Assembly (NCBI GenBank): GCA_902775555.1
Contig: CACYMQ010000016.1
Span: 1-57,576 of the forward strand
Direction: 5' to 3'
Origin: an uncultured Lachnospiraceae bacterium
Lineage (GTDB): Bacteria; Bacillota; Clostridia; Lachnospirales; Lachnospiraceae
Length of the DNA: 57,576 nt
This document shows positions 1,374 to 38,888 of this stretch, one piece after another (the stretch's first letter is position 1; each line of letters begins with the position of its first letter). The translations under genes were made by a program, and so were the position numbers. The notes beneath the pieces were generated by a model. The model saw only the letters and a list, made by a program, of their open reading frames with translations. It was not told where the DNA came from and did not search any database.

Positions 1374-1499
1374 TGTCATCCTGAGCGAAGCGAAGGATCT
1401 TACGGACAAAAGATTCTTCGGGCTGTGCCCTCAGAATGACATCGTACAGAATGACATGACAGCGTGTCATCCTGAGGAGCGCAAGCGACGAAGGATCCT
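1374..1499. repeat. Cluster of three hairpin repeats (two direct, one inverted)
   Basis: Three copies of a short dispersed repeat sit between recN and the next gene: + strand at 1374-1402, inverted at 1411-1441, + strand at 1465-1499. Each has outer arms ATCCT/AGGAT or ATTCT/AGAAT, then GA opposite GA, then a small inner hairpin. In the inverted copy the inner stem is GGGC/GCCC around ACA. The inner part of the third copy is longer and does not fold as neatly. The first two copies face each other and could also pair with one another. Confidence 0.8.
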
Positions 1500-1542
1500 G
1501 GCTACACAACAAAAGACCTCTGTATAAAGGAGATCATATTAC

Positions 1543-2481
1543 ATGATAGAGACAGTAGCTGCCGTCAACCTGATGGTAGAAGAAGTGTTGAAGATAAAGA
1601 AGAACAGACTCACTCCGGATCTTCTGACCGGTAATGAGAAGAGGATCTGTATCGTATCGGGGATCTTCGGCGATGAGATACAGGGCCAGTATGTCTGCTA
1701 TGAACTGATCCGCAGGATCAAGGAGGATTACGGGAGCCTGAAGGGGATCGTGGATGTATACCCGGCACTGAACCCTCTTGGCATGGAGGCAAAGACCAGA
1801 GAGATCCCGGGCCCCGAGCTGGAAATGAACGGGCTTTTTCCGGGCAGTCCCAGCGGCGTAATGGGTGAGTATGCTGCATATTGTGTATTCGAAGATATGA
1901 GGGATGCGGATTTCTGTGTGGATGTACATGGGAGCAATATGTTCCTTCATGAGATCCTTCAGGTCCGTATGAATAATGATAATGTGGATGAACTGCTCCC
2001 CTATGCCCGGGCGCTCAATACGGATATGATCTGGATCCATCCTTCCAATCAGGTGAAGAGAGGGAGTCTGGTCTATGAGCTGAACCGGATCGGAGTGAAG
2101 AGCTTTGTAACGGAATCCAGTTATGCATACCGGATCGATCAAAATTACGGGAACCAGCTGGTGGACGGCATCTTTGCGCTTATGAAGGAGCTGGGGATCT
2201 GGGAAGGGGAGACCATCATTCCCAGGGAACCCCTGATCACAAATGATGAGGAGATGTCCTTCATCAACTCGGAGTCCAGCGGGATCTTCATTCCGGATGT
2301 GAGGGTCAGTTCCTTTGTAAGAAAGGGAGACCGGATCGGAACCGTCGTGGATGTGATCACGGGATCCGTGGAAGAGATCGTTACCGCACCAAAGACCGGG
2401 GTGATCTCGGCCATGCGTGAATACCCTGCCATAGAAGAGGGATCGCTGCTGGCCAGGATCGTGGCATCTCCGGGGAAGTAG
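1543..2481 (+). CDS. Aspartoacylase/AstE-like (M14-related) protein with a lost zinc ligand
   Basis: The 312-residue protein has the layout of the succinylglutamate desuccinylase/aspartoacylase family: an N-terminal carboxypeptidase-like fold and a C-terminal barrel-sandwich part (APKTGVISA near residue 285). The family's first zinc motif, normally H-G-x-E, reads GIFGDEIQG near residue 42, so the His is Phe while the Glu stays. The second ligand motif DVHGSN (near 126) keeps its His. AAAGGAG lies 10 bases before the ATG. A paralogue follows 7 bases after the stop, so the two are likely co-translated and may form a pair. With one ligand missing, normal zinc hydrolase activity is doubtful; the substrate is unknown. 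Family assignment is fairly sure, function is not. Confidence 0.8.
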   Translation: MIETVAAVNLMVEEVLKIKKNRLTPDLLTGNEKRICIVSGIFGDEIQGQYVCYELIRRIKEDYGSLKGIVDVYPALNPLGMEAKTREIPGPELEMNGLFPGSPSGVMGEYAAYCVFEDMRDADFCVDVHGSNMFLHEILQVRMNNDNVDELLPYARALNTDMIWIHPSNQVKRGSLVYELNRIGVKSFVTESSYAYRIDQNYGNQLVDGIFALMKELGIWEGETIIPREPLITNDEEMSFINSESSGIFIPDVRVSSFVRKGDRIGTVVDVITGSVEEIVTAPKTGVISAMREYPAIEEGSLLARIVASPGK

Positions 2482-2488
2482 GACAGCT

Positions 2489-3424
2489 ATGACGAAAGAA
2501 ACCTTATTTACAATGAATACCGCATTTCGCGGCACATATAACATTTACGGATATCATTACGGGATGGGGGAGCATGAGGCCTGCATCGTCGGAGCCATGC
2601 GGGGAAATGAGTATCAGCAGCTTTACATATGCTCGCTCCTCAGCAAGAAACTGGCAGGGCTGGAAGCCCAGGGACAGATCCTTCCGGGGAAGTCCATTAT
2701 GATCATTCCGTCACTGAATTACAGCGCCATGAATGCCAGTCATAAGTTCTGGCTTTCGGATGATACGGATATCAACAGGGAATTTCCCGGAAATCCCACG
2801 GGAACGGCCACCAGCCGGATCGCATATTCCATCCTGGAGATCGTGAAGGAATACCGCTATGGGATCCAGTTCCCGAGCTTCTATCTCCAGGGACGTTATA
2901 TCCCCCATGTCCGCATGATGCATACGGGACATGAAAGCACGAATCTGGCGAACCTCTTCGGTCTGCCCTATGTGATCACCAGTGATATCCGGTCCTTTGA
3001 TACCACAACCCTGAATTATAACTGGCAGATGGCGGGCACTGAGGCGTTCTCCATCTATTCCGGCGGTACGGAGCGGATCAACCAGTACGATGCGGAGATT
3101 GCGGTCTCCAGCGTGCTCCGGTTCCTGTCCCGGATGGGCATTATTCATTATAACTGCCAGGGCGGGTATATCTCCACTGTCATGCAGGAGGAGGAAATGC
3201 TCAGCATCAAGGCGGATGATGCAGGATTCTTCCATCAGATCGTCGGGACAAATGAAGAGGTGCACAGAGGACAGAAGCTGGCGGATATCATCGACCCCAT
3301 GGATGGTCGGGTGATATCTGAGGTGACTGCGCCTACGGACGGGATCATTTTCTTCGTTCAGGAGCAGCCCATGATCTACCAGAATGTCGTGATCTACAAG
3401 ATGATCAAGAAACTGCACTTATAG
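2489..3424 (+). CDS. Second aspartoacylase/AstE-like protein, zinc site degenerate
   Basis: This 311-residue paralogue follows the previous gene after 7 bases. It shares the family layout, including the C-terminal barrel-sandwich part (APTDGIIFF near 290). Its metal motifs are more eroded: GAMRGNEYQ (near 36) has Arg where the family has the ligand His, and the region that should hold the D-x-H motif reads GIQFPSF (near 130). DINREFPG near 93 resembles the substrate-loop motif NRxFPG of active members and is kept. It is therefore probably a binding or regulatory partner of the first protein rather than a hydrolase, which is an inference. The gap to purL is 77 bases without a clear terminator. 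Confidence 0.78.
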   Translation: MTKETLFTMNTAFRGTYNIYGYHYGMGEHEACIVGAMRGNEYQQLYICSLLSKKLAGLEAQGQILPGKSIMIIPSLNYSAMNASHKFWLSDDTDINREFPGNPTGTATSRIAYSILEIVKEYRYGIQFPSFYLQGRYIPHVRMMHTGHESTNLANLFGLPYVITSDIRSFDTTTLNYNWQMAGTEAFSIYSGGTERINQYDAEIAVSSVLRFLSRMGIIHYNCQGGYISTVMQEEEMLSIKADDAGFFHQIVGTNEEVHRGQKLADIIDPMDGRVISEVTAPTDGIIFFVQEQPMIYQNVVIYKMIKKLHL

Positions 3425-3501
3425 ACAGATCCGTACCCCGCGCGACGGAAATGGCTGACATATCAATAACAAATCAATTTATTCATAAAGGAGTACACAC
3501 C

Positions 3502-6500
3502 ATGAGCAAGGTAAGAAGAATCTACGTTGAGAAGCGACCGGACTACGCAGTCCGTGCCAATGAGCTGGAGAAGGAATTTAAGGACTATCTGGGCCTTTCC
3601 TCGATCCACGTAAGAGAGCTGGTACGTTATGATATCGAGAATATCAGTGATGAGGTCTATCGGGGCGCTCTGGTGACCGTATTCTCCGAACCCCCCGTAG
3701 ATATAGTCTATGAGGAAGAGTTTCCGAAGGAGGAGGGGGATTTCGTATTCTCCATGGAGTATCTTCCCGGACAGTTCGATCAGCGTGCGGATTCCGCCGA
3801 GCAGTGTGTGAAGCTGCTGTCCGAAGAGGCAGAGCCCATCATCCGCTCCGGTGTTACCTATGTGGTATCCGGCGAGCTTACGGAGGAAGCGAAGGCAGAG
3901 ATTGAGAAATACGTCGTGAACCCCGTGGATTCAAGAGTGACGGATGAGACCAAGCCGGATACGCTGGTTATGGAATTCCCGGAGCCGGCGGATGTAAAGA
4001 TCTTTGACGGTTTCACAAAACTGGATGAAGCCGCATTGAAGGAACTCTATGATTCCCTGGGCCTTGCCATGACCTTTAAGGATTTTCAGCATATCCAGAA
4101 TTATTTCGGAGGAGAAGAGCATAGAGATCCTACCATGACGGAGATCCGCGTGCTGGATACCTATTGGTCCGATCACTGCCGTCATACCACATTTGCCACA
4201 GAGCTGACAGAGGTGGCCTTTGATGAGGGTCCCTATACGGAGCCCATCCGTAAGACCTTTGAAATGTATCAGAACGATGCGGCGAAGATCAATGCCGGCC
4301 GCACCGATAAGTTCACCTGCCTCATGGATATCGCCCTTATGGGGATGAAGCGTCTTCGCGCGGAGGGGAAGCTTGCGGATCTGGATGTATCCGATGAGAT
4401 CAATGCCTGCACCATCGTCGTTCCGGTGGAGATCGACGGAAAGACGGAGGACTGGCTCATCAGCTTTAAAAATGAGACACATAACCATCCGACGGAGATC
4501 GAGCCCTTCGGTGGGGCTGCAACCTGCCTGGGCGGTGCCATCCGTGATCCGCTGTCCGGACGTACCTATGTCTATCAGGCCATGCGTGTCACCGGTGCGG
4601 CAGATCCTACCAAGTCCCTGAAAGAGACCATGGCAAATAAGCTTCCCCAGAGGAAGATCGTTACCACGGCTGCCGAGGGATATTCCTCATACGGAAATCA
4701 GATCGGTCTGGCTACGGGTCTTGTAAATGAGATCTATCATCCGGATTATGTGGCAAAGCGTATGGAGATCGGTGCCGTGATCGGCGCAGCTCCAAAGGAA
4801 AATGTCATGCGTCTTACCTCCGATCCCGGGGATGTGATCATCCTGATGGGCGGACGTACCGGCCGTGACGGCTGTGGCGGTGCAACCGGTTCCTCCAAGG
4901 CACACAACTCCGAAAGTCTGGAGAGCTGTGGTGCCGAGGTACAGAAGGGTAATCCGCCTACCGAGAGAAAACTGCAGCGTCTCTTCCGTCGTCCGGAGGT
5001 GGCAAAGCTTATCAAGAAATGTAACGACTTCGGCGCAGGCGGTGTATCCGTAGCCATCGGTGAACTGGCGGACGGTCTGGATATCAATCTGGATCTGGTA
5101 CCGAAGAAATATGCCGGTCTCGACGGAACGGAGCTTGCCATTTCCGAGTCCCAGGAGCGTATGGCGCTTGTTGTGGATAAGAAGGATGTGGATACCATGA
5201 TCGGCTACGCCCGGGAGGAGAATCTGGAGGCGGTTGCCGTAGCGGTTGTTACGGAAGAACCCCGTATGATCCTTCGCTGGAGAGGAAAAGAAGTGGTAAA
5301 TCTCTCCCGTGCATTTATCAATACCAACGGGGCACATCAGGAGACGAAAGCCCGGGTGACCCAGCCTGAAGCTAAGAGCTACTTCAGCACGGAAGCACCG
5401 AAGGACCTGAAGGAGACATGGCTAAGTACCCTGTCAGACCTGAATGTATGCTCGCAGCGCGGCCTTGTGGAAATGTTCGATTCCACCATCGGTGCAGGTA
5501 CGGTGACCATGCCTTATGGCGGAAAGTATCAGCTGACACCGATCCAGACCATGACAGCCAAGCTGCCGCTGGGTACACAGAAGTGTGATACCGTGACCAT
5601 GATGAGTTATGGATATGATCCGTACCTTTCCTCCTGGAGCCCGTATCATGGCGCAAGCTACGCAGTCCTGGATTCTGTGGCGAAGATCGCAGCGGCAGGC
5701 GGAGATGTTTCGAAGATCCGTCTGACCTTCCAGGAATATTTCGAAAGAATGTCCGAGGATCCCACACGCTGGGGCAAGCCGCTGGCTGCACTGCTGGGTT
5801 CCTATGCGGCACAGATCGGTCTGTCACTTCCGTCCATCGGCGGAAAGGACTCCATGTCCGGATCCTTTAATGAGATCGATGTACCGCCCACGCTGGTATC
5901 CTTTGCCGTGGATGTGGACAGTTATATGAATATCGTGACTCCCGAGCTTAAGAAACCGGGAAATGTACTGCTGTATATGAAGGTTGACAGGGATTCCTAT
6001 GATCTTCCCGTTTATGCGGATGCGCTGACCAAGTACGGCGCGCTGAAGAAGGCTGTGGATAAGGGACTGATCGTCAGTGCCTATGCAGTAGGCTTCGGCG
6101 GTGTGATCGAAGCAGTCAGCAAGATGGCCTTCGGAAATAAGCTGGGTGTGGCTTTGGATGAGAAGTGCATTTCCGGAAAGGACCTGACAGAGAAGGCATA
6201 TGGTGCGATCCTGATCGAAGCGGATCCCGGAAAACTGGCGGAGCTGGAGCTTCCGGCCACCGTGATCGGAACCGTAACGGAAGACCCGGTATTCGGATAC
6301 GGCAGCATGAAGCTGTCCGTGGATGAGGCGGTTGAAGCATGGACCAGACCGCTGAAGAAGGTATTCCCCACTGCTTCCGGTGTCCCGCAGAAGAAGATCG
6401 ATACCGGTCTCTATGAAGAGAAGAATATCTATGTATGCAAACACAAGGTAGCACGTCCCAGAGTCTTCATTCCCGCATTTCCGGGAACCAACTGTGAGGA

Positions 6501-7251
6501 CGATACGGCCCGTGCATTTGAACGTGCGGGAGCCGATGTGCATACCGTTGTCCTGAACAATATGGATGCGGAGGGTATCCGGGATTCCGTAAATGCCTTC
6601 GCAAAGGAGATCAGTGAGGCACAGATCGTCATGATCCCGGGAGGTTTCTCCGGAGGTGACGAGCCGGACGGTTCCGCCAAGTTTATCGCAACCACCTTCC
6701 GGAACGAGAAGATCAAAGAGGAACTGCAGAAGCTTCTGTATGAGAGAGACGGACTGGCACTGGGTATCTGCAACGGCTTCCAGGCTCTGATCAAACTGGG
6801 ACTCCTGCCTTATGGAGAGATCCGGCCGCAGAGTGAGAATTCTCCCACTCTGGCACGGAATTCCATCGGCCGTCATCAGTCCCGCATCGCATATACGAAA
6901 GTGGTGAGCAACAAATCCCCCTGGATGCAGAAGGCAGAACTGGGTGGCGTATATGCCATTCCCATGTCTCATGGAGAAGGCCGGTTCGTGGCAAATGATG
7001 AATGGCTGAAGAAACTTTTTGCAACAGGACAGGTGGCAACCCAGTATGTAGACCTTTCCGGTACACCGACCATGGATGAGGATTATAATGTGAACGGCTC
7101 CTATATGGCAATCGAAGGTATCACCAGTCCCGACGGACGTGTGCTCGGTAAGATGGGTCATTCGGAGAGACGCGCGGAAGGAGATTATATCAACATTTAC
7201 GGTGATAAGAATCAGCTCATCATGGAATCCGGAGTGGAATATTTTAAATAA
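3502..7251 (+). CDS. purL: Phosphoribosylformylglycinamidine synthase, single-chain type
   Basis: It converts FGAR to FGAM in purine synthesis using glutamine and ATP. At 1249 residues it is the large form in which the synthetase and glutaminase parts are fused. ATG 3502 is chosen over an upstream ATG at 3451 because AAAGGAG (3488-3494) precedes it closely and the family N-terminus begins here. Visible landmarks: the linker motif YWSDHCRHTTF (near 220), the glycine-rich loop KNETHNHPTEIEPFGGAAT (near 330), the glutaminase segment FPGTNCEDDTARAF (near 995), the nucleophile Cys1090 in GICNGFQALI, and the C-terminal HSERRAEGD. No purine riboswitch is visible in the 77 bases upstream. The neighbours on each side are unrelated. 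Confidence 0.97.
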   Translation: MSKVRRIYVEKRPDYAVRANELEKEFKDYLGLSSIHVRELVRYDIENISDEVYRGALVTVFSEPPVDIVYEEEFPKEEGDFVFSMEYLPGQFDQRADSAEQCVKLLSEEAEPIIRSGVTYVVSGELTEEAKAEIEKYVVNPVDSRVTDETKPDTLVMEFPEPADVKIFDGFTKLDEAALKELYDSLGLAMTFKDFQHIQNYFGGEEHRDPTMTEIRVLDTYWSDHCRHTTFATELTEVAFDEGPYTEPIRKTFEMYQNDAAKINAGRTDKFTCLMDIALMGMKRLRAEGKLADLDVSDEINACTIVVPVEIDGKTEDWLISFKNETHNHPTEIEPFGGAATCLGGAIRDPLSGRTYVYQAMRVTGAADPTKSLKETMANKLPQRKIVTTAAEGYSSYGNQIGLATGLVNEIYHPDYVAKRMEIGAVIGAAPKENVMRLTSDPGDVIILMGGRTGRDGCGGATGSSKAHNSESLESCGAEVQKGNPPTERKLQRLFRRPEVAKLIKKCNDFGAGGVSVAIGELADGLDINLDLVPKKYAGLDGTELAISESQERMALVVDKKDVDTMIGYAREENLEAVAVAVVTEEPRMILRWRGKEVVNLSRAFINTNGAHQETKARVTQPEAKSYFSTEAPKDLKETWLSTLSDLNVCSQRGLVEMFDSTIGAGTVTMPYGGKYQLTPIQTMTAKLPLGTQKCDTVTMMSYGYDPYLSSWSPYHGASYAVLDSVAKIAAAGGDVSKIRLTFQEYFERMSEDPTRWGKPLAALLGSYAAQIGLSLPSIGGKDSMSGSFNEIDVPPTLVSFAVDVDSYMNIVTPELKKPGNVLLYMKVDRDSYDLPVYADALTKYGALKKAVDKGLIVSAYAVGFGGVIEAVSKMAFGNKLGVALDEKCISGKDLTEKAYGAILIEADPGKLAELELPATVIGTVTEDPVFGYGSMKLSVDEAVEAWTRPLKKVFPTASGVPQKKIDTGLYEEKNIYVCKHKVARPRVFIPAFPGTNCEDDTARAFERAGADVHTVVLNNMDAEGIRDSVNAFAKEISEAQIVMIPGGFSGGDEPDGSAKFIATTFRNEKIKEELQKLLYERDGLALGICNGFQALIKLGLLPYGEIRPQSENSPTLARNSIGRHQSRIAYTKVVSNKSPWMQKAELGGVYAIPMSHGEGRFVANDEWLKKLFATGQVATQYVDLSGTPTMDEDYNVNGSYMAIEGITSPDGRVLGKMGHSERRAEGDYINIYGDKNQLIMESGVEYFK

Positions 7252-7295
7252 TCAGTGTCCGATATATCCGCAGTGATATGTCAAAGGAGAACAGC

Positions 7296-8540
7296 ATGCA
7301 GAACGGCGAATCCGTCGTGGCTGTCGGACTTCCGGGAAACACGATCCTTCAGGGAAGATACCGGATCGATACAGCTATCGGTATGGGTGGTTTCGGAATT
7401 ACATATAGAGCCTATGATATGTTGGAGCAGACGATCGTTGCCATCAAGGAATATTTCCCTTCCGGTATCGTTACAAGGGGGAAGGATCTGAATGTTTCCA
7501 TCGTGGTGAGAGAGTGCACTGCGGATTATCTGAAGGGGATCAAGCGGTTTCTTCAAGAAGCGAAGGATGTAGCGAAATTCAGGGATAATCCGAATATCGT
7601 AAAAGTAAAGAGTTTTTTCGAGGATAAGGGAACGGCCTACATGGTCATGGAATACCTGGATGGCGTGACGCTGGGAACCTATATCGAGAGAGCCGGCGGC
7701 CGGATCGATGATGCCATGGCGATCCAGGTGATCTTTACATTGATGGATACCCTGGGGCAGGTGCATCAGGCCGGCCTGATCCACAGGGACATCAGTCCGG
7801 ACAATGTATTTGTCTGCAGGGATTCCAGCATACGGCTGATCGACTTCGGCGCAGCCAAGGTCAGCAGTGAGATGGATAACCGTTCCGCTGCCGTGGTATT
7901 GAAACAGGGCTATGCGCCTGTGGAACAGTATTCAACCAAAGGAAATATCGGTCCGTGGACGGATGTTTATGCCTTTGGCGCAATGATGTACTTTATGCTT
8001 ACCGGTGTAAAACCGCCGGAATCCATCGAACGGATGATGGAGGATGATATCATTCCTCCCAGACAGCTGAATCCCAATATCCCGGAAAATGTGGAACGTG
8101 TGATCATGAGGGCGCTTCAGCTGAATACGGGGGACCGTTATCAGAATATGCCGGAAATGAGAGCGTCACTGTTGGGAAAGGATATCCCGATCTCCGAGGA
8201 CACCAGGGGACGAAGCGAGATCCTGAGGGGGACAGCGGCACCGGGCCAGAGTGAGATCCTGAAAGGACCTGCGGTACCGGGCCAGAGCGAGATCCTGAAA
8301 GGACCCGGGGTACCGGGCCAGAGCGAGATCCTAAAGGGGCCCGGGGTACCGGGCCAGAGTGAGATCCTGAGAGGCGCCCCCGTACCCGGTCAGAGCGAGA
8401 TCCTGAAGGGGACGGGAATGCCGGTATACGGAGGAAACTCCGGTGGGAATGAGAAAGGAAGGTCGAAGAAGATCATTATGGCGGGAGTGAGTGTGACGCT
8501 GGTCATAGCAGCGATAGTTTTTTACCTTTTGTTTATGTAA
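7296..8540 (+). CDS. Membrane-anchored Ser/Thr protein kinase with SEILKG repeats
   Basis: A 414-residue bacterial Hanks-type kinase. The glycine loop is GMGGFGITYRA, the ATP-binding lysine is Lys51 in VAIKEYFP, the catalytic loop is HRDISPDN (Asp165) and the metal loop is DFG (Asp183). The ATG at 7296 is preferred to the one at 7278 because AAAGGAG (7283-7289) lies 6 bases before it. After the kinase domain come six units of a 12-residue repeat SEIL(K/R)G-x5-Q (8214 to about 8429), then a basic stretch and one membrane segment at the very C-terminus (IIMAGVSVTLVIAAIVFYLL), so the kinase should face the cytoplasm. It starts a four-gene unit with a MoxR ATPase, a DUF58 protein and a multi-span membrane protein. 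Substrates are unknown. Confidence 0.92.
   Translation: MQNGESVVAVGLPGNTILQGRYRIDTAIGMGGFGITYRAYDMLEQTIVAIKEYFPSGIVTRGKDLNVSIVVRECTADYLKGIKRFLQEAKDVAKFRDNPNIVKVKSFFEDKGTAYMVMEYLDGVTLGTYIERAGGRIDDAMAIQVIFTLMDTLGQVHQAGLIHRDISPDNVFVCRDSSIRLIDFGAAKVSSEMDNRSAAVVLKQGYAPVEQYSTKGNIGPWTDVYAFGAMMYFMLTGVKPPESIERMMEDDIIPPRQLNPNIPENVERVIMRALQLNTGDRYQNMPEMRASLLGKDIPISEDTRGRSEILRGTAAPGQSEILKGPAVPGQSEILKGPGVPGQSEILKGPGVPGQSEILRGAPVPGQSEILKGTGMPVYGGNSGGNEKGRSKKIIMAGVSVTLVIAAIVFYLLFM
8214..8429 (+). repeat. Six 36-bp tandem repeats coding SEIL(K/R)G units
   Basis: Six in-frame units of 36 bases start at 8214, 8250, 8286, 8322, 8358 and 8394. Each encodes SEIL(K/R)G followed by a variable pair, Val/Ala/Met, Pro, Gly and Gln. 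The SEIL core is invariant, and the middle units are nearly identical in DNA, which points to recent copy-number change. The last unit loses the final Pro-Gly-Gln. The array links the kinase domain to its membrane anchor. Confidence 0.9.
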
Positions 8541-8546
8541 GGACGG

Positions 8547-9494: not shown

Positions 9495-9506
9495 TCAGAG
9501 GGCAGC

Positions 9507-11847: not shown

Positions 11848-11953
11848 TCTGCTTTCAGAAAGGTATTTTTGTTTTGTGAGCCCGATTTTGTCAATCGTTT
11901 TATCATTTTCGTGTAAGGGAGTACCGGAAAATATAAGTTTGATCGGGCTCACG
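11825..11953 (-). ncRNA. Candidate small RNA with a 5'-end long-range stem
   Basis: On the - strand a promoter (TTGACA, 17 bases, TATACT) predicts a start near 11953. The RNA would begin with GTGAGCCCGAT (11952-11942), which is exactly complementary to ATCGGGCTCAC at 11886-11876, enclosing a loop of 55 bases. It would end at the bidirectional hairpin 11826-11856. This gives an RNA of about 125 bases. Short frames in it run antisense into the membrane-protein gene and look non-coding. I do not recognise it as 6S, SRP or tmRNA. It is a prediction from promoter, structure and terminator agreeing. Confidence 0.4.
11826..11856. terminator. Hairpin at the end of the kinase/MoxR unit, usable in both directions
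   Basis: GAAAGCAGATC (11826-11836) and GATCTGCTTTC (11846-11856) form a perfect 11-bp stem with a 9-base loop. On the + strand a T-rich stretch follows after a few bases (TATTTTTGTTTT). On the - strand the stem is followed by TTCATTTT, so it could also end the leftward RNA proposed at 11825-11953. It overlaps the stop codon of the + strand gene. Confidence 0.65.
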
Positions 11954-17600: not shown

Positions 17601-17648
17601 TGTCATCCTGAGCAAAGCGAAGGATCTTATGACGATACACCGTCATAA
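17601..17648 (+). repeat. Hairpin repeat copy plus an adjoining 8-bp stem
   Basis: A repeat copy at 17601-17629 has outer arms ATCCT/AGGAT, GA opposite GA and an inner GC/GC stem around AAA. It runs into a second perfect stem, TTATGACG (17627-17634) with CGTCATAA (17641-17648). It lies between leuB and ilvD. No T-tract follows, so termination is not obvious. Confidence 0.75.
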
Positions 17649-21132: not shown

Positions 21133-21162
21133 TGTCATTCTGAGGCAAAGCCGAAGAATCCT
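21133..21162 (+). repeat. Hairpin repeat copy before serC
   Basis: Outer arms ATTCT/AGAAT, GA opposite GA, inner GGC/GCC stem around AAA. Compared with the copy near recN, both the outer C-G pair and the inner stem have changed in a paired way. It occupies most of the ilvB-serC gap. Confidence 0.8.
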
Positions 21163-22308: not shown

Positions 22309-22337
22309 TGTCATCCTGAGCGAAGTAAAGGATCTTA
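22309..22337 (+). repeat. Hairpin repeat copy between serC and serA (eroded)
   Basis: Outer arms ATCCT/AGGAT are kept, but the inner part reads GAGCGAAGTAAAGG, so the inner stem and one GA pair are damaged. This is the least regular of the simple copies and shows the element decays in place. Confidence 0.7.
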
Positions 22338-25585: not shown

Positions 25586-25658
25586 TGTCATCCTAAGCGC
25601 AGCGAAGGATCCGTGCCGCAAAAGGCCGGAAAGATTCTTCGCGTTGCTCAGAATGACA
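25586..25658. repeat. Pair of hairpin repeats in opposite orientation
   Basis: A + strand copy (25586-25612, arms ATCCT/AGGAT, inner GC/GC around GCA) and a - strand copy (25632-25658, arms ATTCT/AGAAT, inner GC/GC around AAC) lie head to head with 19 bases between. The same two-copy inverted arrangement occurs after recN. The second copy ends 44 bases before the DUF1015 start. Confidence 0.8.
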
Positions 25659-29314: not shown

Positions 29315-29317
29315 CGA

Positions 29318-29350
29318 TGTCATTCTGAGTGCGAAGCACGAAGAATCTTA
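29318..29350 (+). repeat. Hairpin repeat copy between glgB and the CobW-type gene
   Basis: Outer arms ATTCT/AGAAT, GA opposite GA, inner GTGC/GCAC stem around GAA. It begins 3 bases after the glgB stop codon. The inner stem has four base pairs and differs from other copies at both sides, so pairing is kept. Confidence 0.8.
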
Positions 29351-29388
29351 TCAAATATAAAACATGTATTATAAACGGAGGCGTTAAC

Positions 29389-30540: not shown

Positions 30541-30617
30541 CCGGTCCGGTTATATAGGAAAGTAAGCCGGGTCCCTGAGAAGGATCCGTAATCGATGGAG
30601 TATAGAGGCATAGGAAC

Positions 30618-31583: not shown

Positions 31584-31588
31584 CACGG

Positions 31589-31645
31589 TGTCATTCTGAG
31601 GGCGCAGCCCGGTGTCATTCTGAGGGCGCAGCCCGAAGAATCTTG
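31589..31645 (+). repeat. Hairpin repeat, partly duplicated in tandem
   Basis: A truncated copy (31589-31610) ends after the inner stem, and a complete copy (31613-31645) with arms ATTCT/AGAAT and inner GGGC/GCCC around GCA follows. The shared first part is identical, so this is a recent partial duplication or slippage event inside the element. Confidence 0.8.
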
Positions 31646-31670
31646 TCATTCAAGCATTAAGGAGAAGAGT

Positions 31671-32264: not shown

Positions 32265-32278
32265 GTTAAAAAAGGTAC

Positions 32279-32866: not shown

Positions 32867-32918
32867 ATTCTTTTGATGAAAACTGTATGAGACTCCCGAA
32901 GAGGCGAAAGGAGAGTCT

Positions 32919-34457
32919 ATGTACAGTAGGATCAACAGTGGAAGCCCCCTTGGGATTGACGGTATGGTGGTAACGGTGGAAGCCGATATCAGCCAGGGAT
33001 TACCGTCACTTTCCATGGTGGGGTATCTGTCCTCCTCCGTTCGTGAGGCGGGCGACCGGGTGCGTACGGCACTCAAAAATTCGGGTTACGGCCTTCCGCC
33101 CAGGCGGATCACCGTAAGTCTTTCTCCGGCAGATGTCAGAAAGGACGGCGCAGGTTATGACCTGGCGATCGCCGTGGCTTTGCTGTGCTGCATGGAGGTA
33201 CTTCCCCGTGAAGGATTAGAAGAGTATATGTTTTTGGGAGAGCTGGGACTGGACGGAAGCGTCCGGGAGATACCCGGCGTTCTTGCTGTGGCGCATTTTG
33301 CTGAAAAGCAGGGATACCGGAAGATCGTTGTGCCCAAAGGAAATGCGGCTGAAGCAGCCTGTATCGACGGGATCCGGGTATATGGGGTGGAAAGTCTTTT
33401 GGAGGTGATATCCTTCCTGGAAGGAGAACTGATCCTGGATCCGACGCCCAGAGATGTGACACGCACGGTACTGCAGGAACCGGGCCATGACATCTCGGAG
33501 ATCCATGGTCAGAAGGCCATGAAACGGGGAGTGGAGATCGCCGTGGCAGGCTTCCATAATATCCTGATGACCGGAGCAGCCGGCGCTGGAAAGTCCCTGA
33601 TGGCAAAGTGTCTTCCGGGACTTATGCCGGAAATGACCTATGAGGAGCAGCTGGAGCTGACGAAGATCTACAGTGTGGCAGGTCTTCTTCGGGGACAGGG
33701 CGGTCTGATGCATCTTCGCCCCTTCCGGAGCCCTCATGCAAATGTGTCGGCGTCCGCGCTTCTCGGCGGTGGCGCCATTCCAAGGCCGGGAGAAGTTTCC
33801 CTGGCGGACTGCGGTGTTCTCTTCCTGGATGAATTTCCGGAGTTCGGACGGGGAGTGATCGAGGGACTTCGTGCACCCATGGAGGATCAGGAGGTGACCG
33901 TATCGCGTGTTCGGGCGTCTTACCGTTTTCCTGCCCGATTCATGCTGGTGGCAGCCCGGAATAACTGTCCCTGTGGTTTCTATCCGGACCGGATGCGGTG
34001 TCATTGTACAGAGAGACAGATACTCGATTATCGGAACCGGATCAGCCATCCCATTATGGACCGGATCGACATCCGGATCGAAGTGCGCCCGGTGGATATG
34101 GAGGATCTTCTCGGTCAGAAGGAAGAGGAGGACAGCAGCGTAGTACGTGCAAGGATTGAGGAAGCCAGGGCAAGGCAGCTTTCCAGGTATGAAGGAGAAG
34201 CGTTTCGGTTCAACTCGTCGGTTCCCCAGTCCAGGCTGCTGGATTATATAAGACTCGGCAGGGAAGAGTCCCTGCTCCTGCAGCAGGAGTACCGGAAGGG
34301 CACACTGTCTGCAAGAGGATATTTCAAGGTGCTCCGGCTGGCCCGGACCGTTGCGGATCTTGAAGGAAGAGAAGAAATCTCCTGCAAGGATCTTACGGAG
34401 GCCCTGTTCTTCAGAAATGGCGGCCTTTCCGGAGAGGAAGGCGGTGAGGGCATATGA
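32919..34457 (+). CDS. comM: YifB/ComM-family Mg-chelatase-like AAA+ ATPase
   Basis: A 512-residue hexameric helicase-like ATPase; in transformable bacteria ComM helps branch migration during DNA uptake. The N-terminal Lon-like fold begins with INSGSPLGIDGMVVTVEADI, Walker A is TGAAGAGKSLMAKCLPG (near 218), the sensor region includes FRSPHANVSASALLGGG and LFLDEFPEF, and a zinc-type NNCPCGFYPD motif follows. AGACTC (32890-32895) can pair with GAGTCT (32913-32918) around the ribosome binding site, so translation may be damped. Its last 4 bases overlap dprA. Confidence 0.94.
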   Translation: MYSRINSGSPLGIDGMVVTVEADISQGLPSLSMVGYLSSSVREAGDRVRTALKNSGYGLPPRRITVSLSPADVRKDGAGYDLAIAVALLCCMEVLPREGLEEYMFLGELGLDGSVREIPGVLAVAHFAEKQGYRKIVVPKGNAAEAACIDGIRVYGVESLLEVISFLEGELILDPTPRDVTRTVLQEPGHDISEIHGQKAMKRGVEIAVAGFHNILMTGAAGAGKSLMAKCLPGLMPEMTYEEQLELTKIYSVAGLLRGQGGLMHLRPFRSPHANVSASALLGGGAIPRPGEVSLADCGVLFLDEFPEFGRGVIEGLRAPMEDQEVTVSRVRASYRFPARFMLVAARNNCPCGFYPDRMRCHCTERQILDYRNRISHPIMDRIDIRIEVRPVDMEDLLGQKEEEDSSVVRARIEEARARQLSRYEGEAFRFNSSVPQSRLLDYIRLGREESLLLQQEYRKGTLSARGYFKVLRLARTVADLEGREEISCKDLTEALFFRNGGLSGEEGGEGI

Positions 34458-35575
34458 TCGAAGAAAGAGATGCGTTTCTCTGGCTTGGAGGTCTTCGGAC
34501 CATTGCTCCCGTGATGCGGCAAAAACTGCTGGAGTTGTTCGGTTCGGCAAATCAGTTCCTTCAGGCGCCCGAATCGGAACTGATGGCTCTGGTGGCAGAC
34601 GGGCAGCTGAAGCAGGAGTCTATGGAGGAGATCATCACCACGAGAAGGGAAGAGGCGGTGCAAAGACTTGCGGAGGATTATCTGAAACGCGGCTTTTCCT
34701 TCCTGACGCCTGCGGATCCGGAATATCCGGAGCTGCTGCGAAATATCCCGGATCCACCGGTCACTCTTTTTTACCGCGGAAGGACAGAGCTGCTTTCGGG
34801 TACCCTCTGTATCGGTGTGGTGGGCACACGGACTCCCAGCCTGTATGGAAAGGAGGTCGCCGGAAGATTTGTGTCCGGTCTGGCATCCGCGGGAATCGTT
34901 ATAGTCAGTGGCCTTGCAGCGGGGATCGATGCGGAAGCACATATGAGTGCCATTCGGTCCGGCGGTGCCACGATAGGTGTTCTGGGAGGAGGGATCGACA
35001 TTTGCTATCCCCAGAGAAACTATGGAATATATTATGAAATGTGTGAATCACAGCTGGTACTGTCGGAATACGCTCCGGGAGTGGCTCCGCTGGCAATTCA
35101 GTTTCCGCTTCGAAACCGGATCATCAGCGGGCTTTCGGAGGGACTCCTTGTTGTGGAAGCCCGGAAGAGATCCGGGACACTCATCACTGCAGATGCGGCC
35201 TTGGAACAGGGGCGCAGTGTCTATGCAGTTCCGGGGCGTCTGGGAGATCCTCTTTGTGAAGGGACCAATAACCTGATCCGCCAGGGAGCCATGTGCGTGA
35301 TGGAAGTATCGGATATCCTGGAGGATCTTGGAGTGGACCTGAAGCAAAGAAAGAGAAGCAGATCGGCCGGTCAAAAGGGAACAGGGCAGGACAACGGGAA
35401 GCTGACGAAGGAGGAACAGCAGATCTTGTCCAAGCTGTCTCTGGTTCCCGTGCATGTGGATGAGCTGTTAAAGGATGGTGACGGAAACCTTCAGGATACG
35501 TTGTCCCTGCTTCTGTCCATGGAGCGAAGGGCACTGATCCACCAGCCTGTGAGGGGGTATTATACGCTGGCATAA
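34454..35575 (+). CDS. dprA: DNA-processing protein DprA
   Basis: DprA loads RecA on incoming single-stranded DNA in transformation. In 373 residues there is an N-terminal helical part, the Rossmann fold starting at IGVVGTRTPSLYGKEVA (near 119), GLAAGIDAEAHMSAI (near 154), GGGIDICYPQRN, the strongly conserved FPLRNRIISGLS (near 215), and a small C-terminal winged-helix-like part. The 4-base overlap with comM means coupled translation. Together they suggest at least a relic of natural competence, although dprA is also kept in bacteria not known to be transformable. Confidence 0.95.
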   Translation: MIEERDAFLWLGGLRTIAPVMRQKLLELFGSANQFLQAPESELMALVADGQLKQESMEEIITTRREEAVQRLAEDYLKRGFSFLTPADPEYPELLRNIPDPPVTLFYRGRTELLSGTLCIGVVGTRTPSLYGKEVAGRFVSGLASAGIVIVSGLAAGIDAEAHMSAIRSGGATIGVLGGGIDICYPQRNYGIYYEMCESQLVLSEYAPGVAPLAIQFPLRNRIISGLSEGLLVVEARKRSGTLITADAALEQGRSVYAVPGRLGDPLCEGTNNLIRQGAMCVMEVSDILEDLGVDLKQRKRSRSAGQKGTGQDNGKLTKEEQQILSKLSLVPVHVDELLKDGDGNLQDTLSLLLSMERRALIHQPVRGYYTLA

Positions 35576-35628
35576 TGGTAAATTCCTTTTTGGGGATGAT
35601 TATTTCTGTTTCGTATGGGATACGGGGA

Positions 35629-35667
35629 TGGTATAATGAACGATAAAGAGCATCGAATGGTTCGATG
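35629..35667 (+). promoter_or_regulatory. Promoter and leader hairpin before the P-loop/SAP pair
   Basis: TGGTATAAT (35629-35637) is an extended -10 box; TTTCGT 17 bases before it is a weak -35 box. In the leader, CATCGAA (35651-35657) pairs with TTCGATG (35661-35667) around TGG. Confidence 0.5.
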
Positions 35668-35747
35668 GATGTATGTTGCTTATTTCCGGGCTGAATAATG
35701 GAACACTTTGATCGAAGAAAAGACATATGGAACAGGGAAGGACAGGC

Positions 35748-36524
35748 ATGAATTATTTTGTAGAAGGTATTCAGGGAAGCGGGAAAAGTACTTTGGTCCG
35801 GCAGCTGGCTGAAAAATACAAGGATTATACAGTATTCCACGAAGGGGCTTATTCTCCGGTAGAACTGGCGTGGTGTACCTGGATGGATGACGAGGCATAT
35901 GAAAAAACACTGGAAAAATACCCGGCCCTGCGTGATGAGATCATGGAAAAGACCGTAACAGAGGGTACGCATAAGGTAATGCGATATACGCAGATCATTA
36001 CGGATATCACGGGATTTCATAAGGACATGGAACAATATGAAATCTATAACGGCAGATTGGACTGGAAGCGGTTCAGGGAAATTGTGCTGACCCGCTATAA
36101 GGTATGGAATGGATCCGATCAGATCTTTGAATGCTCCATCTTCCAAAATTTGGTAGAGGATATGATCCTGTTTCGGCTTATGTCGGACGATGAGATATTA
36201 AGCTTCTACCGGGAGGTTCGGGTCGCCTTGGAAGGGAAACCATACCGCATCTTATATCTTGCCTCGGACAGGATCCGTCAGAATATCGAGATCATCCGGA
36301 AGGAGCGTTCGGATGAGCAGGGAAATGAACTTTGGTTTCCGCTTATGATGGAATTCTTTGATCGCTGCCCTTATGCAAAGGAGAAGAAGAAAGCGGGCGT
36401 TGATGACCTGATCGAGCATTTATTGCACCGTCAGGAGCTGGAAATCAGGCTTTGCAAAGAAGTCTTTGGGGACAGAGCAGTCATTCTTAGATCCAAGGCT
36501 GTGGATGTTGAATATGGTATGTGA
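35748..36524 (+). CDS. P-loop kinase-like protein of unknown substrate
   Basis: A 258-residue protein with a clear Walker A loop EGIQGSGKSTLVRQLAEKY at residues 5-23, followed by FHEGAYSPVELAW. YRILYLASDRIRQNIEIIRK (near 170) looks like the Arg-rich lid of nucleotide kinases. ATG 35748 is preferred over the one at 35727 because GGAAGGA lies just before it. Overall it resembles thymidylate-kinase-like P-loop proteins, but no substrate residues are recognisable. The SAP/DUF6434 gene starts 3 bases after the stop and shares its promoter. No operon link to the cobalamin genes downstream. Confidence 0.75.
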   Translation: MNYFVEGIQGSGKSTLVRQLAEKYKDYTVFHEGAYSPVELAWCTWMDDEAYEKTLEKYPALRDEIMEKTVTEGTHKVMRYTQIITDITGFHKDMEQYEIYNGRLDWKRFREIVLTRYKVWNGSDQIFECSIFQNLVEDMILFRLMSDDEILSFYREVRVALEGKPYRILYLASDRIRQNIEIIRKERSDEQGNELWFPLMMEFFDRCPYAKEKKKAGVDDLIEHLLHRQELEIRLCKEVFGDRAVILRSKAVDVEYGM

Positions 36525-36527
36525 TCT

Positions 36528-37151
36528 ATGAAGAATAATAACAGACCGGAATTTGATGATATCCGGGATTATGAAGAGTTCAGTAAGTACTATTGGTATC
36601 GCGATGAGCTGATCAAAATATGCAGGGACCGGGGCCTGAAAGCCCCAAGCGGAAAGATTGAGCTGAATAAGGTGATCGAAGCTTATTTCGCAGGGGATAG
36701 AATCCTGCCGGAAACAAAGATAACGAAGAAGACAAAGAATAAGAAGCCTGTCATCACGGAGCTTACACCTGAAACCGGACTTATCGAGTGCGGTTTTACC
36801 TTCGGGAATAAGTTCAAGGAGTTCTTTTCGAAGCAAACGGGAGAAGAACACTTTAAATTCAATGTAGATATGGTTGCAACAGTCAAGGCGGTGAAGGAAA
36901 GCGGGGATGAAGCTTTTACCCTCGGTGACTTACTGGACGTATATCATGGAAAGATGACCTATGCGGTATATGACAGATCGGCGCTTCAGTGGAATCGATT
37001 CGTGAAAGATTTCTGTGCAGACGAAGCCACAAAAGTGTTCGGAGAGCGCCTGAAGGCTGCCGCAGCACTATGGAGTATCGTCCGGGATTCGGATATGGAA
37101 AAGGTCTACTCAAGAGAATTGCTTGAGAAATACCGGGACAGGATAGGCTAA
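36528..37151 (+). CDS. SAP-domain protein with a DUF6434-like domain
   Basis: A 207-residue protein. Residues 20-55 (YYWYRDELIKICRDRGLKA then GKIELNKVIEAYFAG) fit a SAP helix-extended-loop-helix, a possible nucleic-acid-binding element. A Lys-rich linker (KKTKNKKP) leads to a second domain with FTFGNKFKEFFSKQTGEEHF and LQWNRFVKDFCAD, as in proteins annotated SAP plus DUF6434 in Firmicutes. Nothing more precise is known to me. It is translated together with the upstream P-loop protein (3-base gap). Confidence 0.75.
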   Translation: MKNNNRPEFDDIRDYEEFSKYYWYRDELIKICRDRGLKAPSGKIELNKVIEAYFAGDRILPETKITKKTKNKKPVITELTPETGLIECGFTFGNKFKEFFSKQTGEEHFKFNVDMVATVKAVKESGDEAFTLGDLLDVYHGKMTYAVYDRSALQWNRFVKDFCADEATKVFGERLKAAAALWSIVRDSDMEKVYSRELLEKYRDRIG

Positions 37152-37190
37152 ATGGATCGATTCAGGAGTAGCAGCAGGTGCTCCGGTTCA

Positions 37191-37219
37191 TTGACATGCG
37201 GGATGTAGTGTGTTAGAAT
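37191..37219 (+). promoter_or_regulatory. Promoter of the cobalamin region
   Basis: TTGACA (37191-37196), exactly 17 bases, TAGAAT (37214-37219). The predicted start near 37226 lies just before the cobalamin riboswitch, so transcripts begin with the full aptamer. It is one of the best promoters in the window. Confidence 0.75.
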
Positions 37220-37235
37220 TGCCACGTCAAATGAA

Positions 37236-37435
37236 TCATGCGGATCAGGGTGCCTCCGACTGCCTCATATGGCAGGGCCGGAGGGTAAAAGGGAAACAGG
37301 TGCGAAGCCTGTGCGATCTCGTCACTGTGACAGAGGAGTCTGACGGCAGGGCCGGAAGCAGTCACTGGGGAAACCCGGGAAGACAGCCGTCGGATGATGA
37401 TCCTCAAGCCAGGAAACCTGCCTTGTATCCGGGTA
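37236..37435 (+). promoter_or_regulatory. Cobalamin riboswitch (aptamer)
   Basis: The conserved core is visible in order: GGGAAACAGGTGCGAAGCCT (37291-37310), the GTCACTGTGAC region (from 37321), a second CACTGGGGAAACCCGGGAAG-like arm (from 37373), and the B12 box AGCCAGGAAACCTGCC (37407-37422). CGGAT (37241-37245) and ATCCG (37427-37431) close the P1 stem. It binds adenosylcobalamin or a related corrinoid and should turn down the genes that follow when the cofactor is abundant. The window between 37152 and 37569 holds only this element, its promoter and terminator. Confidence 0.95.
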
Positions 37436-37466
37436 CATGAGATCACGAGGAATTGGTCGTACCGGT

Positions 37467-37486
37467 AAGGCGATTTCGCCTTTTTT
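37467..37486 (+). terminator. Riboswitch expression-platform terminator
   Basis: AAGGCG (37467-37472) pairs with CGCCTT (37477-37482) around ATTT, with a run of T to 37486; outer bases ACCGG and CTGGT extend the stem. Its position about 35 bases after the B12 box suggests a transcription-terminating riboswitch. Confidence 0.8.
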
Positions 37487-37569
37487 CTGGTGCCCATTAC
37501 CGTGTATGCGGTGATGGGTTTCGCTTTTCGTACGTCATTTCCCGAATACTTACAGAAGGAGAACAGAAA

Positions 37570-38838
37570 ATGAGAAAGAAACTGGCAGCAGTAGCGGTAC
37601 TTTCCGCAATGTGTGTAGCTTCCCTGAGCGGATGCGGATCGGATGACAAGGCAACTACGGGGAGTGCGGCGACAACCGCAGCGGCAACCGAAGCAAAGAC
37701 GGCGGAGACTCCGGCAACCACGGCAGCTTCAGAGGCTGCGACCGAAGCGGATACATCCGCGGGAAAGGATGACAAGGCTAAGGCAGATGAAGTGGCTGCC
37801 CTGATCGATAAGATCTACGTTCAGGAACGGACAGATACTACCGACGCTGATTGCAAGGCTGCAAAGGAAGCGTGGGATGCTCTGACGGATGCGCAGAAGG
37901 AACTGGTAGAGGGAGAAAATGCAGACCCGGATTATTTCGGAAGAGATACCGGCGATGCATCCAAGGATGACCCGCTGAATGCTGACAATATCGGTGAAAA
38001 TGAGATCCTGGTGGTCAGCTTCGGTACCTCCTTCAACGATAGCCGCGCTGAGGATATCGGCGGTATCGAGAAGGCCATCCAGAAGGCATATCCGGACTGG
38101 TCCGTAAGACGTGCATTTACTGCTCAGATCATCATCAACCACGTTCAGGCAAGAGACGGTGAAGTGATCGACAACATGGAGCAGGCCATGGATCGTGCCG
38201 TTGCAAACGGCGTAAAGAATCTGGTGATCCAGCCCACCCATCTCATGCATGGTGCGGAGTACGATGAGATGAAGGCAGTTGCTGATAAGTATGCAGACAA
38301 GATCGAATCCATCAAGATCTCCGAACCCCTTCTGGGTGAAGTAGGTGCGGATGCATCGGTTGTAAATGAAGACAAGAAGGCTGTTGCAGGCTATGTGGTA
38401 AATGCGGCGGTTGCCGATTCCGCCTATGACACACTGGATGCCGCAAAGGCAGACGGAACGGCCATCGTTCTTATGGGACACGGAACCTCCCATGCTGCAA
38501 AGGTATCCTATTCCCAGATGCAGACGCAGATGAAGGAGCTGGGCTTCGATAATGTATGGGTCGGCACTGTGGAAGGAGAACCGGAGGATACCTCCTGTGA
38601 GGCAGTGATCAAGGCAGTTCATGACGCAGGCTATAAGAAGGTGATCCTTCGTCCGCTCATGGTTGTTGCAGGAGATCATGCAAACAATGATATGGCCGGA
38701 GATGACGATGATTCCTGGAAGTCACAGTTTACTGCATCCGGATTCTTTGATAAAGTAGATACAGAGATCGCAGGTCTGGGACGAATCGAGGATGTTGAAC
38801 AGCTCTATGTGAAGCATCTGAAGGATGTGATCAAGTAA
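37570..38838 (+). CDS. cbiK: Sirohydrochlorin cobaltochelatase (CbiK type) with a lipoprotein signal
   Basis: CbiK inserts cobalt into sirohydrochlorin in the anaerobic B12 pathway. The 422-residue protein has an N-terminal lipoprotein signal (MRKKLAAVAVLSAMCVASLS then GC, lipid Cys22), a Thr/Ala/Glu-rich spacer to about residue 75, a short helical segment (EAWDALTDAQKELV), then the chelatase from about residue 140: VVSFGTSFNDSR, QPTHLMHGAEYD, and the catalytic histidines in GHGTSH (His304) and GDHANND (His370). The signal predicts it is anchored outside the cytoplasm, unlike the classic cytosolic enzyme. AAGGAG precedes ATG 37570, directly after the riboswitch. It may load cobalt into external tetrapyrroles or serve in uptake. 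Confidence 0.93.
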   Translation: MRKKLAAVAVLSAMCVASLSGCGSDDKATTGSAATTAAATEAKTAETPATTAASEAATEADTSAGKDDKAKADEVAALIDKIYVQERTDTTDADCKAAKEAWDALTDAQKELVEGENADPDYFGRDTGDASKDDPLNADNIGENEILVVSFGTSFNDSRAEDIGGIEKAIQKAYPDWSVRRAFTAQIIINHVQARDGEVIDNMEQAMDRAVANGVKNLVIQPTHLMHGAEYDEMKAVADKYADKIESIKISEPLLGEVGADASVVNEDKKAVAGYVVNAAVADSAYDTLDAAKADGTAIVLMGHGTSHAAKVSYSQMQTQMKELGFDNVWVGTVEGEPEDTSCEAVIKAVHDAGYKKVILRPLMVVAGDHANNDMAGDDDDSWKSQFTASGFFDKVDTEIAGLGRIEDVEQLYVKHLKDVIK

Positions 38839-38860
38839 AACGTCCCATGGTTTTATAAGC

Positions 38861-38888
38861 TGTCCTGAGGGCGAGTGCCCGAAGGATC
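38861..38888 (+). repeat. Diverged hairpin repeat copy after cbiK
   Basis: Outer arms GTCCT/AGGAT (one G-T pair), GA opposite GA, inner GGGC/GCCC around GAGT. The usual TGTCAT lead has lost three bases. It is the only copy inside the cobalamin region and the last one in the window. Confidence 0.7.

Follow-up and report, generated by a model that had tools for sequence, protein, structure and literature searches.

We analyzed a 57,576-nucleotide stretch of DNA from an uncultured Lachnospiraceae bacterium (contig CACYMQ010000016.1 of assembly GCA_902775555.1; this whole stretch is referred to as the window) and a family of short hairpin repeats dispersed between its genes, which we treat as repetitive extragenic palindromes (REPs). 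The genes of one subfamily of small GIY-YIG nucleases were associated with tagged hairpins of this kind in many phyla, and this association is well supported. We consider it probable that mobile elements with the structure REP-(GIY-YIG)-REP have these repeats as their ends, and that further copies derive from such elements by loss of the gene.

The repeat motif was found at all eight places where an earlier inspection of the letters alone (the sequence-only reading) had reported a hairpin family. At a cut-off of three mismatches there were 10 full, non-overlapping copies, eight of which match a strict pattern, and three partial or degenerate ones (Table 1). The reported presence of the copies stood, and the orientation of two was corrected: those at 1411-1441 and 25632-25658 lie on the minus strand, and therefore 1374-1441 and 25586-25658 are inverted pairs. 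Reversed sequence, used as a control, gave no match in the window or in 1.10 Mb of other sampled sequence. A search of the window against Rfam returned no repeat family, and a literature search with the motif string returned nothing relevant. The source genome (G000; 3.0 Mb in 96 contigs) contained 292 strict matches, 146 per strand, with none in its reversed control, and 394,523 bases sampled from it outside the window held 100 non-overlapping copies after overlap removal.

When a genome collection was scanned for TGTCATYCTGAGCGNAGCGAAGRATCT, at least 117 stretches were returned. The matches listed included Bacteroidota, Acidobacteria, Chloroflexi, Nitrospirota, Nitrospinota, Planctomycetes, Clostridia, Fibrobacter, Ignavibacteria, Deltaproteobacteria, Gemmatimonadales, Magasanikbacteria, Poribacteria and Alphaproteobacteria, in line with the statement of the sequence-only reading that similar repeats occur in unrelated bacteria. 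From the first 80 of these loci we picked 49 carrier genomes, with 3 to 238 copies each. Among 25 genomes of the genus of G000, the counts were 292 in G000, 58 in G002, 53 in G019, 44 in G016, 32 in G018, 10 in G011 and 0-2 in the others; of 16 genomes of other genera in the same count, one has 4 copies.

The nuclease was found by screening the neighbours of the repeats. Stretches around the listed repeats of G000, G002 and a Magasanikbacteria genome (G112), together with the first 80 loci, contained 1,593 open reading frames (ORFs). At 30 of these (a raw count), most of them ordinary genes, repeats lay within 400 bp of both ends. One cluster crossed phyla: a protein of 94-100 amino acids (aa), flanked by repeats on both sides in G000 (Lachnospiraceae), G112 and Pedobacter sp. 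AK013. An earlier screen of the 80 loci alone had yielded three shared families, none of them near repeats, and the whole stretches were needed. Another ORF that clustered with the candidate (L261:6190-6474) was set aside; it apparently belongs to a different GIY-YIG subfamily and has a repeat on one side only. At the Pedobacter locus (L273, 1838-2285), repeat units at steps of about 140 bp lie on one side of the gene and more copies on the other.

PF01541 matches identify the cluster protein as a GIY-YIG nuclease (E 4e-15 to 1e-16 across the three genomes); it had no NCBIfam match above cut-off, and its best solved relatives are the UPF0213 proteins BH0048 (1zg2) and EF2693 (1ywl). It shares the PF01541 catalytic domain with GIY-YIG homing endonucleases and standalone proteins of the Slx1/UPF0213 kind, and differs from these in being flanked by co-varying hairpin repeats. 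Across 71 proteins, Y18, G20 and E65 were conserved in all (71/71, 100%), R28 in 99% and Y7 in 97%; we take Y18, G20, E65 and R28 of this ~95-aa nuclease to be the putative catalytic positions. The protein thus has the GIY-YIG domain pattern (Y, Y-x-G, R, E), and it is predicted to cleave DNA. A profile built from the three discovery proteins (A1) gave strong matches (E ≤ 1e-24) in 29/49 carriers. G000 possesses one intact copy, on a contig other than the window (C10:4010-4288). This was the only strong full-length enzyme among 61 genomes of the genus (G053 has fragments), and the highest repeat count among 25 genomes of the genus belongs to its sole holder.

We compared 71 loci of the nuclease gene with 1,842 random placements in the same loci. 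A hairpin was scored when a tag, [CT]GTC or CCTC, was followed by A-Y... and paired with ...R-T-C within 230 bp of the gene; inward-facing hairpins are called head-to-head (HH). The 71 loci include the discovery cases L272, L273 and L302, and exclude L301, L303, L304 and L311 (broken or weak) and L305-L310 (weak). Any tagged hairpin was present at 55/71 loci versus 228/1,842 placements, and HH hairpins on both sides at 27/71 versus 17/1,842. The proportion with a hairpin was 24/30 in carriers (14 on both sides), a set drawn from repeat-bearing genomes. In two sets not chosen for repeats, it was 20/29 in Alphaproteobacteria (8 on both sides; 29 loci out of 66 matching genomes) and 11/12 in plasmids (5 on both sides; 12 of 35 records). 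Further, when the left flank was locally aligned with the reversed right flank, 42/59 loci exceeded all 141 controls.

An earlier detector, which required an exact 5-bp stem, had found hairpins on both sides at 14/30 and 8/29 loci versus 0/525 placements. A second (both sides, 10/71 versus 9/1,249; any, 25 versus 57) was discarded because GA-type hairpins escape its scoring. The final rule was thus tuned on the 71 loci, and for this reason 20 further enzyme copies in carrier genomes were tested with the rule unchanged (20 of the 22 strong matches, E ≤ 1e-25, without a locus; two contain a stop codon). Any hairpin was present at 17 of them, any HH hairpin at 15 and HH hairpins on both sides at 8. 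The corresponding numbers were 3, 0 and 0 for 20 other GIY-YIG genes of carrier genomes, which were selected weaker matches (E 2e-15 to 3e-6) assigned to other subfamilies by score alone. The sequence-only reading knew of no defined role for the repeats; in its place we propose a specific partner, the GIY-YIG nuclease. It is hardly credible that the nuclease gene merely hitch-hikes, that is, that repeats fill many gaps and flank small gap genes by chance. Such chance flanking does occur, as the mostly ordinary genes among the 30 repeat-flanked ORFs indicate, but random placements, the other carrier GIY-YIG genes and Y1 transposase genes (see below) all gave far lower values, and the effect persisted in the sets not selected for repeats.

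The enzyme and its repeats also varied together. Hairpin types at the nuclease loci include TGTCATYCTGAG.., TGTCATTGCGAG..GCAATC and TGTCATCCCGAG..GGGATC, with tags of CGTC, TGTC and CCTC forms; alphaproteobacterial loci carry classical forms such as CGTCATCCCCGCGAAGGCGGGGATCCAG, and CCA tails occur there. Protein distances were correlated with repeat-arm distances over 49 loci (Mantel r 0.386, 0/5,000 permutations), within Alphaproteobacteria (r 0.468, 0/5,000) and among the others (r 0.302, 44/5,000); when permutation was confined within Alphaproteobacteria and within the rest, the result was also 0/5,000. On a poorly resolved tree of 70 enzymes, the YCTGA repeat type clustered (10 changes versus 15.2 shuffled, 1/500 as low), as did all repeat labels together (29 versus 37.5 changes, 0/200). 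These labels are rough (22 rows are 'other' and 22 are without a hairpin), and host relatedness contributes to the clustering because most 'other' rows are Alphaproteobacteria. The count of 13 changes for repeat type against 18 for host was not used as evidence because the numbers of label states differ. Four alphaproteobacterial enzymes (L284, L312, L313 and L326) fell among those of other phyla; L312 and L313 bear GA-type hairpins, L284 a similar one and L326 none by the rule. A near-identical enzyme occurs across phyla in Chloroflexi L280 and Planktothrix L342 (81% identical).

These loci connect the nuclease with the CGTC-tagged REP superfamily, which was described in five phyla in 2013, with the spreading agent left open and the repeats reported as not associated with transposase genes, according to the accessible part of that paper (Di Nocera, De Gregorio and Rocco 2013, PMC3733652). 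Several of the species or genera with the nuclease are named there as CGTC-positive, and 'GIY' occurs 0 times in its accessible text. Plasmid records with the gene beside repeats came from Azospirillum lipoferum, Rhizobium sp. CIAT894, Shinella, Novosphingobium, Sphingobium, Sinorhizobium, Spirosoma, Planktothrix and Neisseria gonorrhoeae. The last has CGTCATTCCCGCGCAGGCGGGAATC near the gene, which is of the dRS3 type by the equation of dRS3 with CGTC-1 in the same source. Rhizobium tumorigenes and Photobacterium have only one-sided copies, about 180 bp away. On pSymB of Sinorhizobium meliloti (L341, ~2340-3420), longer repeats of the CCTCATCCCTGTGCTCGTCACAGGGAT type form a mosaic around the gene; they are matched in 135 records at many rhizobial replicon sites and resemble RIME-type elements.

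The repeats studied here resemble CGTC REPs, as characterized in the accessible text of PMC3733652, in a tag of the CGTC/TGTC kind, a stem that opens with an AT pair, inverted dimers that are often heterodimers, and a patchy distribution; the same GIY-YIG subfamily adjoins classical CGTC repeats in Alphaproteobacteria and Neisseria. They differ in structure: a 5-bp outer stem, GA facing GA, an inner stem of 2-4 bp or longer and mostly triloops, against a stem of 8-9 bp and a loop of 4-5 nt, and a tail of CT or CC (window copies) against a 3-nt tail that is mostly CCA. Clusters are common in G000 and G002. We did not file the repeats under CGTC-1 to -4, because stem and loop differ, and they occur in Clostridia and many phyla beyond those in that account. 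We lean slightly towards a broader proposal, in which elements that encode a standalone ~95-aa GIY-YIG nuclease as their one protein and end in self-folding DNA hairpins form a class across many prokaryotic phyla, are the missing engine of CGTC REPs, Neisseria dRS3 and its relatives included, and have unequal left and right ends following the C-G/T-A rule given below.

The consensus of the repeat is TGTC, AT-Y-CT, GA, inner stem, loop, inner stem, GA, AG-R-AT and CT; the inner stem is rich in G-C. The compensatory changes described in the sequence-only reading held up in a shuffle test, used in place of R-scape, on 40 distinct 31-mers with nine pairs, drawn from several outputs and forming part of the existing copies. 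Paired cells amounted to 99.4% versus 85.2% in shuffles, cells changed on both sides to 53 versus 19.7 (0/500 shuffles as high), and the covariation score was 0.379 versus 0.113 (0/500), with slid structures at no more than 0.159. Both partners had changed at columns 13 (16 sequences) and 14 (20 sequences), which belong to the inner stem, and at the outer Y-R pair (17 sequences). Two other measures were no higher than in shuffles, namely double-changed pairs (3 versus 2.9) and further pair types (8 versus 9.0). Columns 5-29 and 6-28 were A-T and T-A in 40/40 31-mers, the arms being part of the search; because the outer arms served to find the copies, the informative positions are confined to the inner stem and the Y-R pair.

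GA faced GA in most copies, in line with the sequence-only reading: in 8/10 window copies (the exceptions begin at 22309 and 25586) and in 47/49, 44/49 and 71/73 distinct copies of G000, G002 and G112. Longer forms contain a second GA/GA. Of the triloops among distinct copies, 22/29, 19/28 and 22/26 were GNA in these genomes and 5/9 in the window. DNA folding energies of the repeats showed little gain over shuffles, and the 33-nt form did not fold as expected; to our knowledge, the energy model has no bonus for GNA loops or sheared GA pairs. DNA mini-hairpins with GNA loops are described as extraordinarily stable, with a Tm of 78 °C for d(GCGAAGC), in the accessible text of PMC4686876, and GCGAAGC is the core of one common form of the repeat. 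Both the covariation and the GNA triloops agree with the suggestion that the repeats are selected or copied in the form of a folded single strand, which may be DNA or RNA.

Copies lie mainly between genes, in agreement with the sequence-only reading. With a crude ORF caller, copy centres fell inside called ORFs in 17/100 cases in the sampled G000 sequence versus 88.9 expected, in 15/79 versus 71.0 in G002 and in 35/100 versus 86.1 in G112. Repeat clusters of the window begin 3-58 bp past a stop codon. At three junctions each in G000 and G002, the end of the upstream ORF seems to fall 11 bases inside the repeat, which would make the TGA of TGTCATYCTGAG its stop codon. Placement of the window clusters just past stop codons would suit hairpins whose main function is in RNA (as 3'-end stabilisers, attenuators or ribosome stalling sites), with mobility secondary, and so would the orientation of single copies in same-direction gaps, with the tag toward the upstream gene in 18/23 cases in G000 and G002; covariation fits any folded strand. 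Nevertheless, we regard a primary RNA role as quite improbable: strand counts are equal (146 and 146), the tag points toward the upstream gene in only 8/17 single copies of G112, and the repeats are patchy within one genus, from 0 to 292 copies.

Neighbouring copies followed a pairing rule. Among copies within 60 bp of each other, with non-standard outer pairs excluded and tandem copies not being independent, inverted neighbours had opposite outer pairs (C-G versus T-A) in 84/87 cases (G000, 37/37; window, 3/3; G002, 16/17; G112, 28/30), and direct neighbours shared the outer-pair type in 30/31. Among CGTC REPs, HH dimers predominate and tail-to-tail (TT) and head-to-tail (HT) ones are rare; here, neighbours were HH in 31 of 32 cases in G112, G000 had 21 HH, 16 TT and 13 HT, and G002 had 10 HH, 11 TT and 19 HT. 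Other families of REPs are reported to form heterodimers too, for which the accessible text of PMC3733652 sees 'no obvious explanation' apart from protection against clearance. An array of 13 same-orientation copies at 46-bp steps occupies G002:C1:1962248-1962826.

Signs of mobility came from related genomes. On a plasmid of Azospirillum lipoferum (L343:1989-2282), the GIY-YIG gene, flanked left and right by a REP pair, lies inside the suf operon between sufB and sufC; in the aligned A. oryzae, A. ramasamyi and Azospirillum sp. B510, no gene lies between them. In Sphingobium sp., strains TomMM15 and TomTYG46 have REP-gene-REP, TomTYG64 and TomTYG74 a single palindrome and TomTYG72 neither. S. 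meliloti and Sinorhizobium sp. M103 were rejected as an empty-site pair because both have the gene, and the Planktothrix locus L354 was left out. In gene-less pairs of G112, the 4 nt inside each hairpin matched in 102/124 positions versus 51 shuffled (0/2,000), and three of the six GIY-YIG units examined in G112 carry the inner ends of these pairs (CTGTCC, CTGGCTCA, AGTTC). Isolated G112 pairs also have symmetric outer flanks, approximately CAAY before TGTC and RTTG after GACA, which may be more of the element or a palindromic target. The gene-less units resemble miniature inverted-repeat transposable elements (MITEs) in that they are short, carry inverted repeats but no coding sequence, look as if they arose by internal deletion, and share ends with a gene-bearing element in G112; they differ in their self-folding hairpin ends, the lack of a visible target duplication and a partner that is not a known transposase. 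Further, in a survey of 198 Bacteroidota genomes (enzyme cut-off, E ≤ 1e-20), the enzyme was present in 51/74 genomes with the repeat versus 34/124 without (p 1e-8, kinship ignored).

Several observations weigh against the REP-(GIY-YIG)-REP reading. Strong enzyme matches were missing from 20/49 carriers, including G122 (238 copies), G096 (196), G093 (151) and G124 (144), and enzyme matches from G002, G016, G018 and G019 (32-58 copies) and from the Bacteroidota genomes G268 (126 copies) and G387 (80). Conversely, 34/124 Bacteroidota without the repeat have the enzyme, where other repeat types are possible, and Bacteroidota genomes with at least 10 copies have it in 16/25 cases, no more than all repeat-bearing ones. 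No tagged hairpin was found within 230 bp at 16/71 loci, and two rarer repeat types did not cluster on the poorly resolved enzyme tree. The exact insertion boundaries are not readable in the alignments of relatives, and 31 isolated G112 pairs gave no target-site duplication (no excess for k = 1 to 5). The gene-less pairs of G112 are of the YCTGA type, but of the three GIY-YIG units that share their inner ends, two have CCCGA-type hairpins. G000 and G002 showed no such matching ends. Mobilization by the nuclease, with the transposition, binding and cutting that it would involve, is something we infer from sequence. Host repair would also be needed, because we know of no GIY-YIG protein that joins DNA strands.

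Some of these observations would also suit the main rival, in which cause and effect are reversed and a homing nuclease targets REP pairs. According to this explanation, the GIY-YIG gene behaves as a parasite of the homing type, which takes palindromes as its target and so splits a REP pair on insertion, and the REPs spread by other means. The carriers without a strong enzyme match are as it would predict, the two gene-less Sphingobium sites retain a single palindrome, and homing endonucleases are where the GIY-YIG domain was originally discovered, according to the accessible text of PMC1564403. We nevertheless judge it unlikely, since enzyme and repeat sequences co-vary, enzyme presence tracks repeat presence, gene-less pairs share inner ends with some gene-bearing units, and the neighbour screen gave no other candidate enzyme. 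Where copies are numerous but the enzyme is missing, relics, movement in trans and this rival would each account for the pattern.

If the repeats are ends and derivatives of REP-(GIY-YIG)-REP elements, an element would consist of two inward-facing REP hairpins around one gene for the ~95-aa nuclease. The nuclease would recognize the extruded hairpin, probably in single-stranded DNA at a replication fork or as a cruciform, and would cut near the tag, and host repair or replication would then copy the unit to another site. Inverted pairs without the gene would have arisen by internal deletion and, like MITEs, would be mobilized in trans. Copies may accumulate behind stop codons, as insertion there would do little harm.

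The sequence-only reading had suggested looking for a REP-associated tyrosine transposase (RAYT, a Y1 enzyme), and we rejected such an enzyme as the driver after searching G000, the 61 genus genomes and the 49 carriers and testing flanks. PF01797 occurs in 36/61 genus genomes and 33/49 carriers; a Y1 match was absent from the carriers G016 and G018 and from 16/49 further carrier genomes. None of 37 Y1 loci (30 from carriers and 7 from the genus) had a tagged hairpin within 230 bp, and one had it within 500 bp. The one intact RAYT-like gene of G000 encodes 249 aa (L002:1120-1869, minus strand, contig C11). Its flanks carry a different repeat of the GGGACGGTT type, judged from repeated peptides in neighbouring ORF translations, and so G000 seemingly holds two unrelated REP systems. 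The repeats do resemble GTAG REPs and REPINs moved by RAYT (TnpA-REP), in tagged hairpins, inverted pairs, alternating arrays like those of BIMEs, intergenic sites, a dedicated small flanked enzyme and gene-less derivatives. However, they have the tag TGTC instead of GTAG, and the partner is a GIY-YIG nuclease unrelated to HUH/Y1 enzymes. Even with an intact RAYT-like gene in G000 as a further point in its favour, mobilization of these repeats by RAYT, as REPs or REPINs, is very improbable.

The copies in the window are given in Table 1. A Cobalamin riboswitch (RF00174, 98.1 bits) was also detected in the window, at 37231-37439 on the plus strand, ahead of a CbiK-like gene at 37453.

Table 1. 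Hairpin repeat copies in the window.
Feature	Position	Strand	Remarks
REP copy, C-G type, 27 nt	1374..1400	+	left half of inverted (HH) pair
REP copy, T-A type, 31 nt	1411..1441	-	right half of HH heterodimer 1374-1441
Partial copy, one arm	1445..1456	-	TGTCATTCTGTA
REP copy, C-G type, 34 nt	1465..1498	+	second, nested GA/GA
REP copy, C-G type	17601..17627	+	12 bp past stop of PF00180 (isocitrate/isopropylmalate dehydrogenase) gene
REP copy, T-A type	21133..21161	+	4 bp past stop codon
REP copy, C-G type	22309..22335	+	3' arm degenerate (GA faces AA)
REP copy, C-G type	25586..25612	+	CTAAG variant; left half of HH heterodimer
REP copy, T-A type	25632..25658	-	right half of HH heterodimer 25586-25658
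REP copy, T-A type	29318..29348	+	GTGC/GCAC inner stem, GAA loop; 3 bp past stop codon
Truncated tandem copy	31589..31612	+	5' arm and inner stem only
REP copy, T-A type	31613..31643	+	GGGC/GCCC inner stem, GCA loop
Degenerate copy	38861..38889	+	TGTCAT tag lost

A link between GIY-YIG proteins and REPs was not found among the listed hits of literature searches, judged by title and start of abstract; preprints and most subscription journals lay outside this search, and prior publication is possible. The link is not made in the accessible parts of a 2025 REP survey (PMC12306157) and a HuH nuclease survey (PMC6006769), nor in that of the 2006 GIY-YIG survey (PMC1564403), where 'palindrom-' has 0 occurrences. 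In the accessible text of a Moraxella paper (PMC9465073), both appear in one gene table and no link is drawn.

The nuclease may be the enzyme so far missing for a large family of bacterial repeats, and the results suggest an overlooked, minimal kind of mobile DNA. Because the gene and its cognate repeats are now defined, the spread of CGTC REPs becomes directly testable. If the proposal is true, GIY-YIG nucleases would be an added class of enzyme among those that spread DNA repeats in prokaryotes, and it would help to explain how near-identical 27-bp sequences come to be present across many phyla, candidate phyla included.

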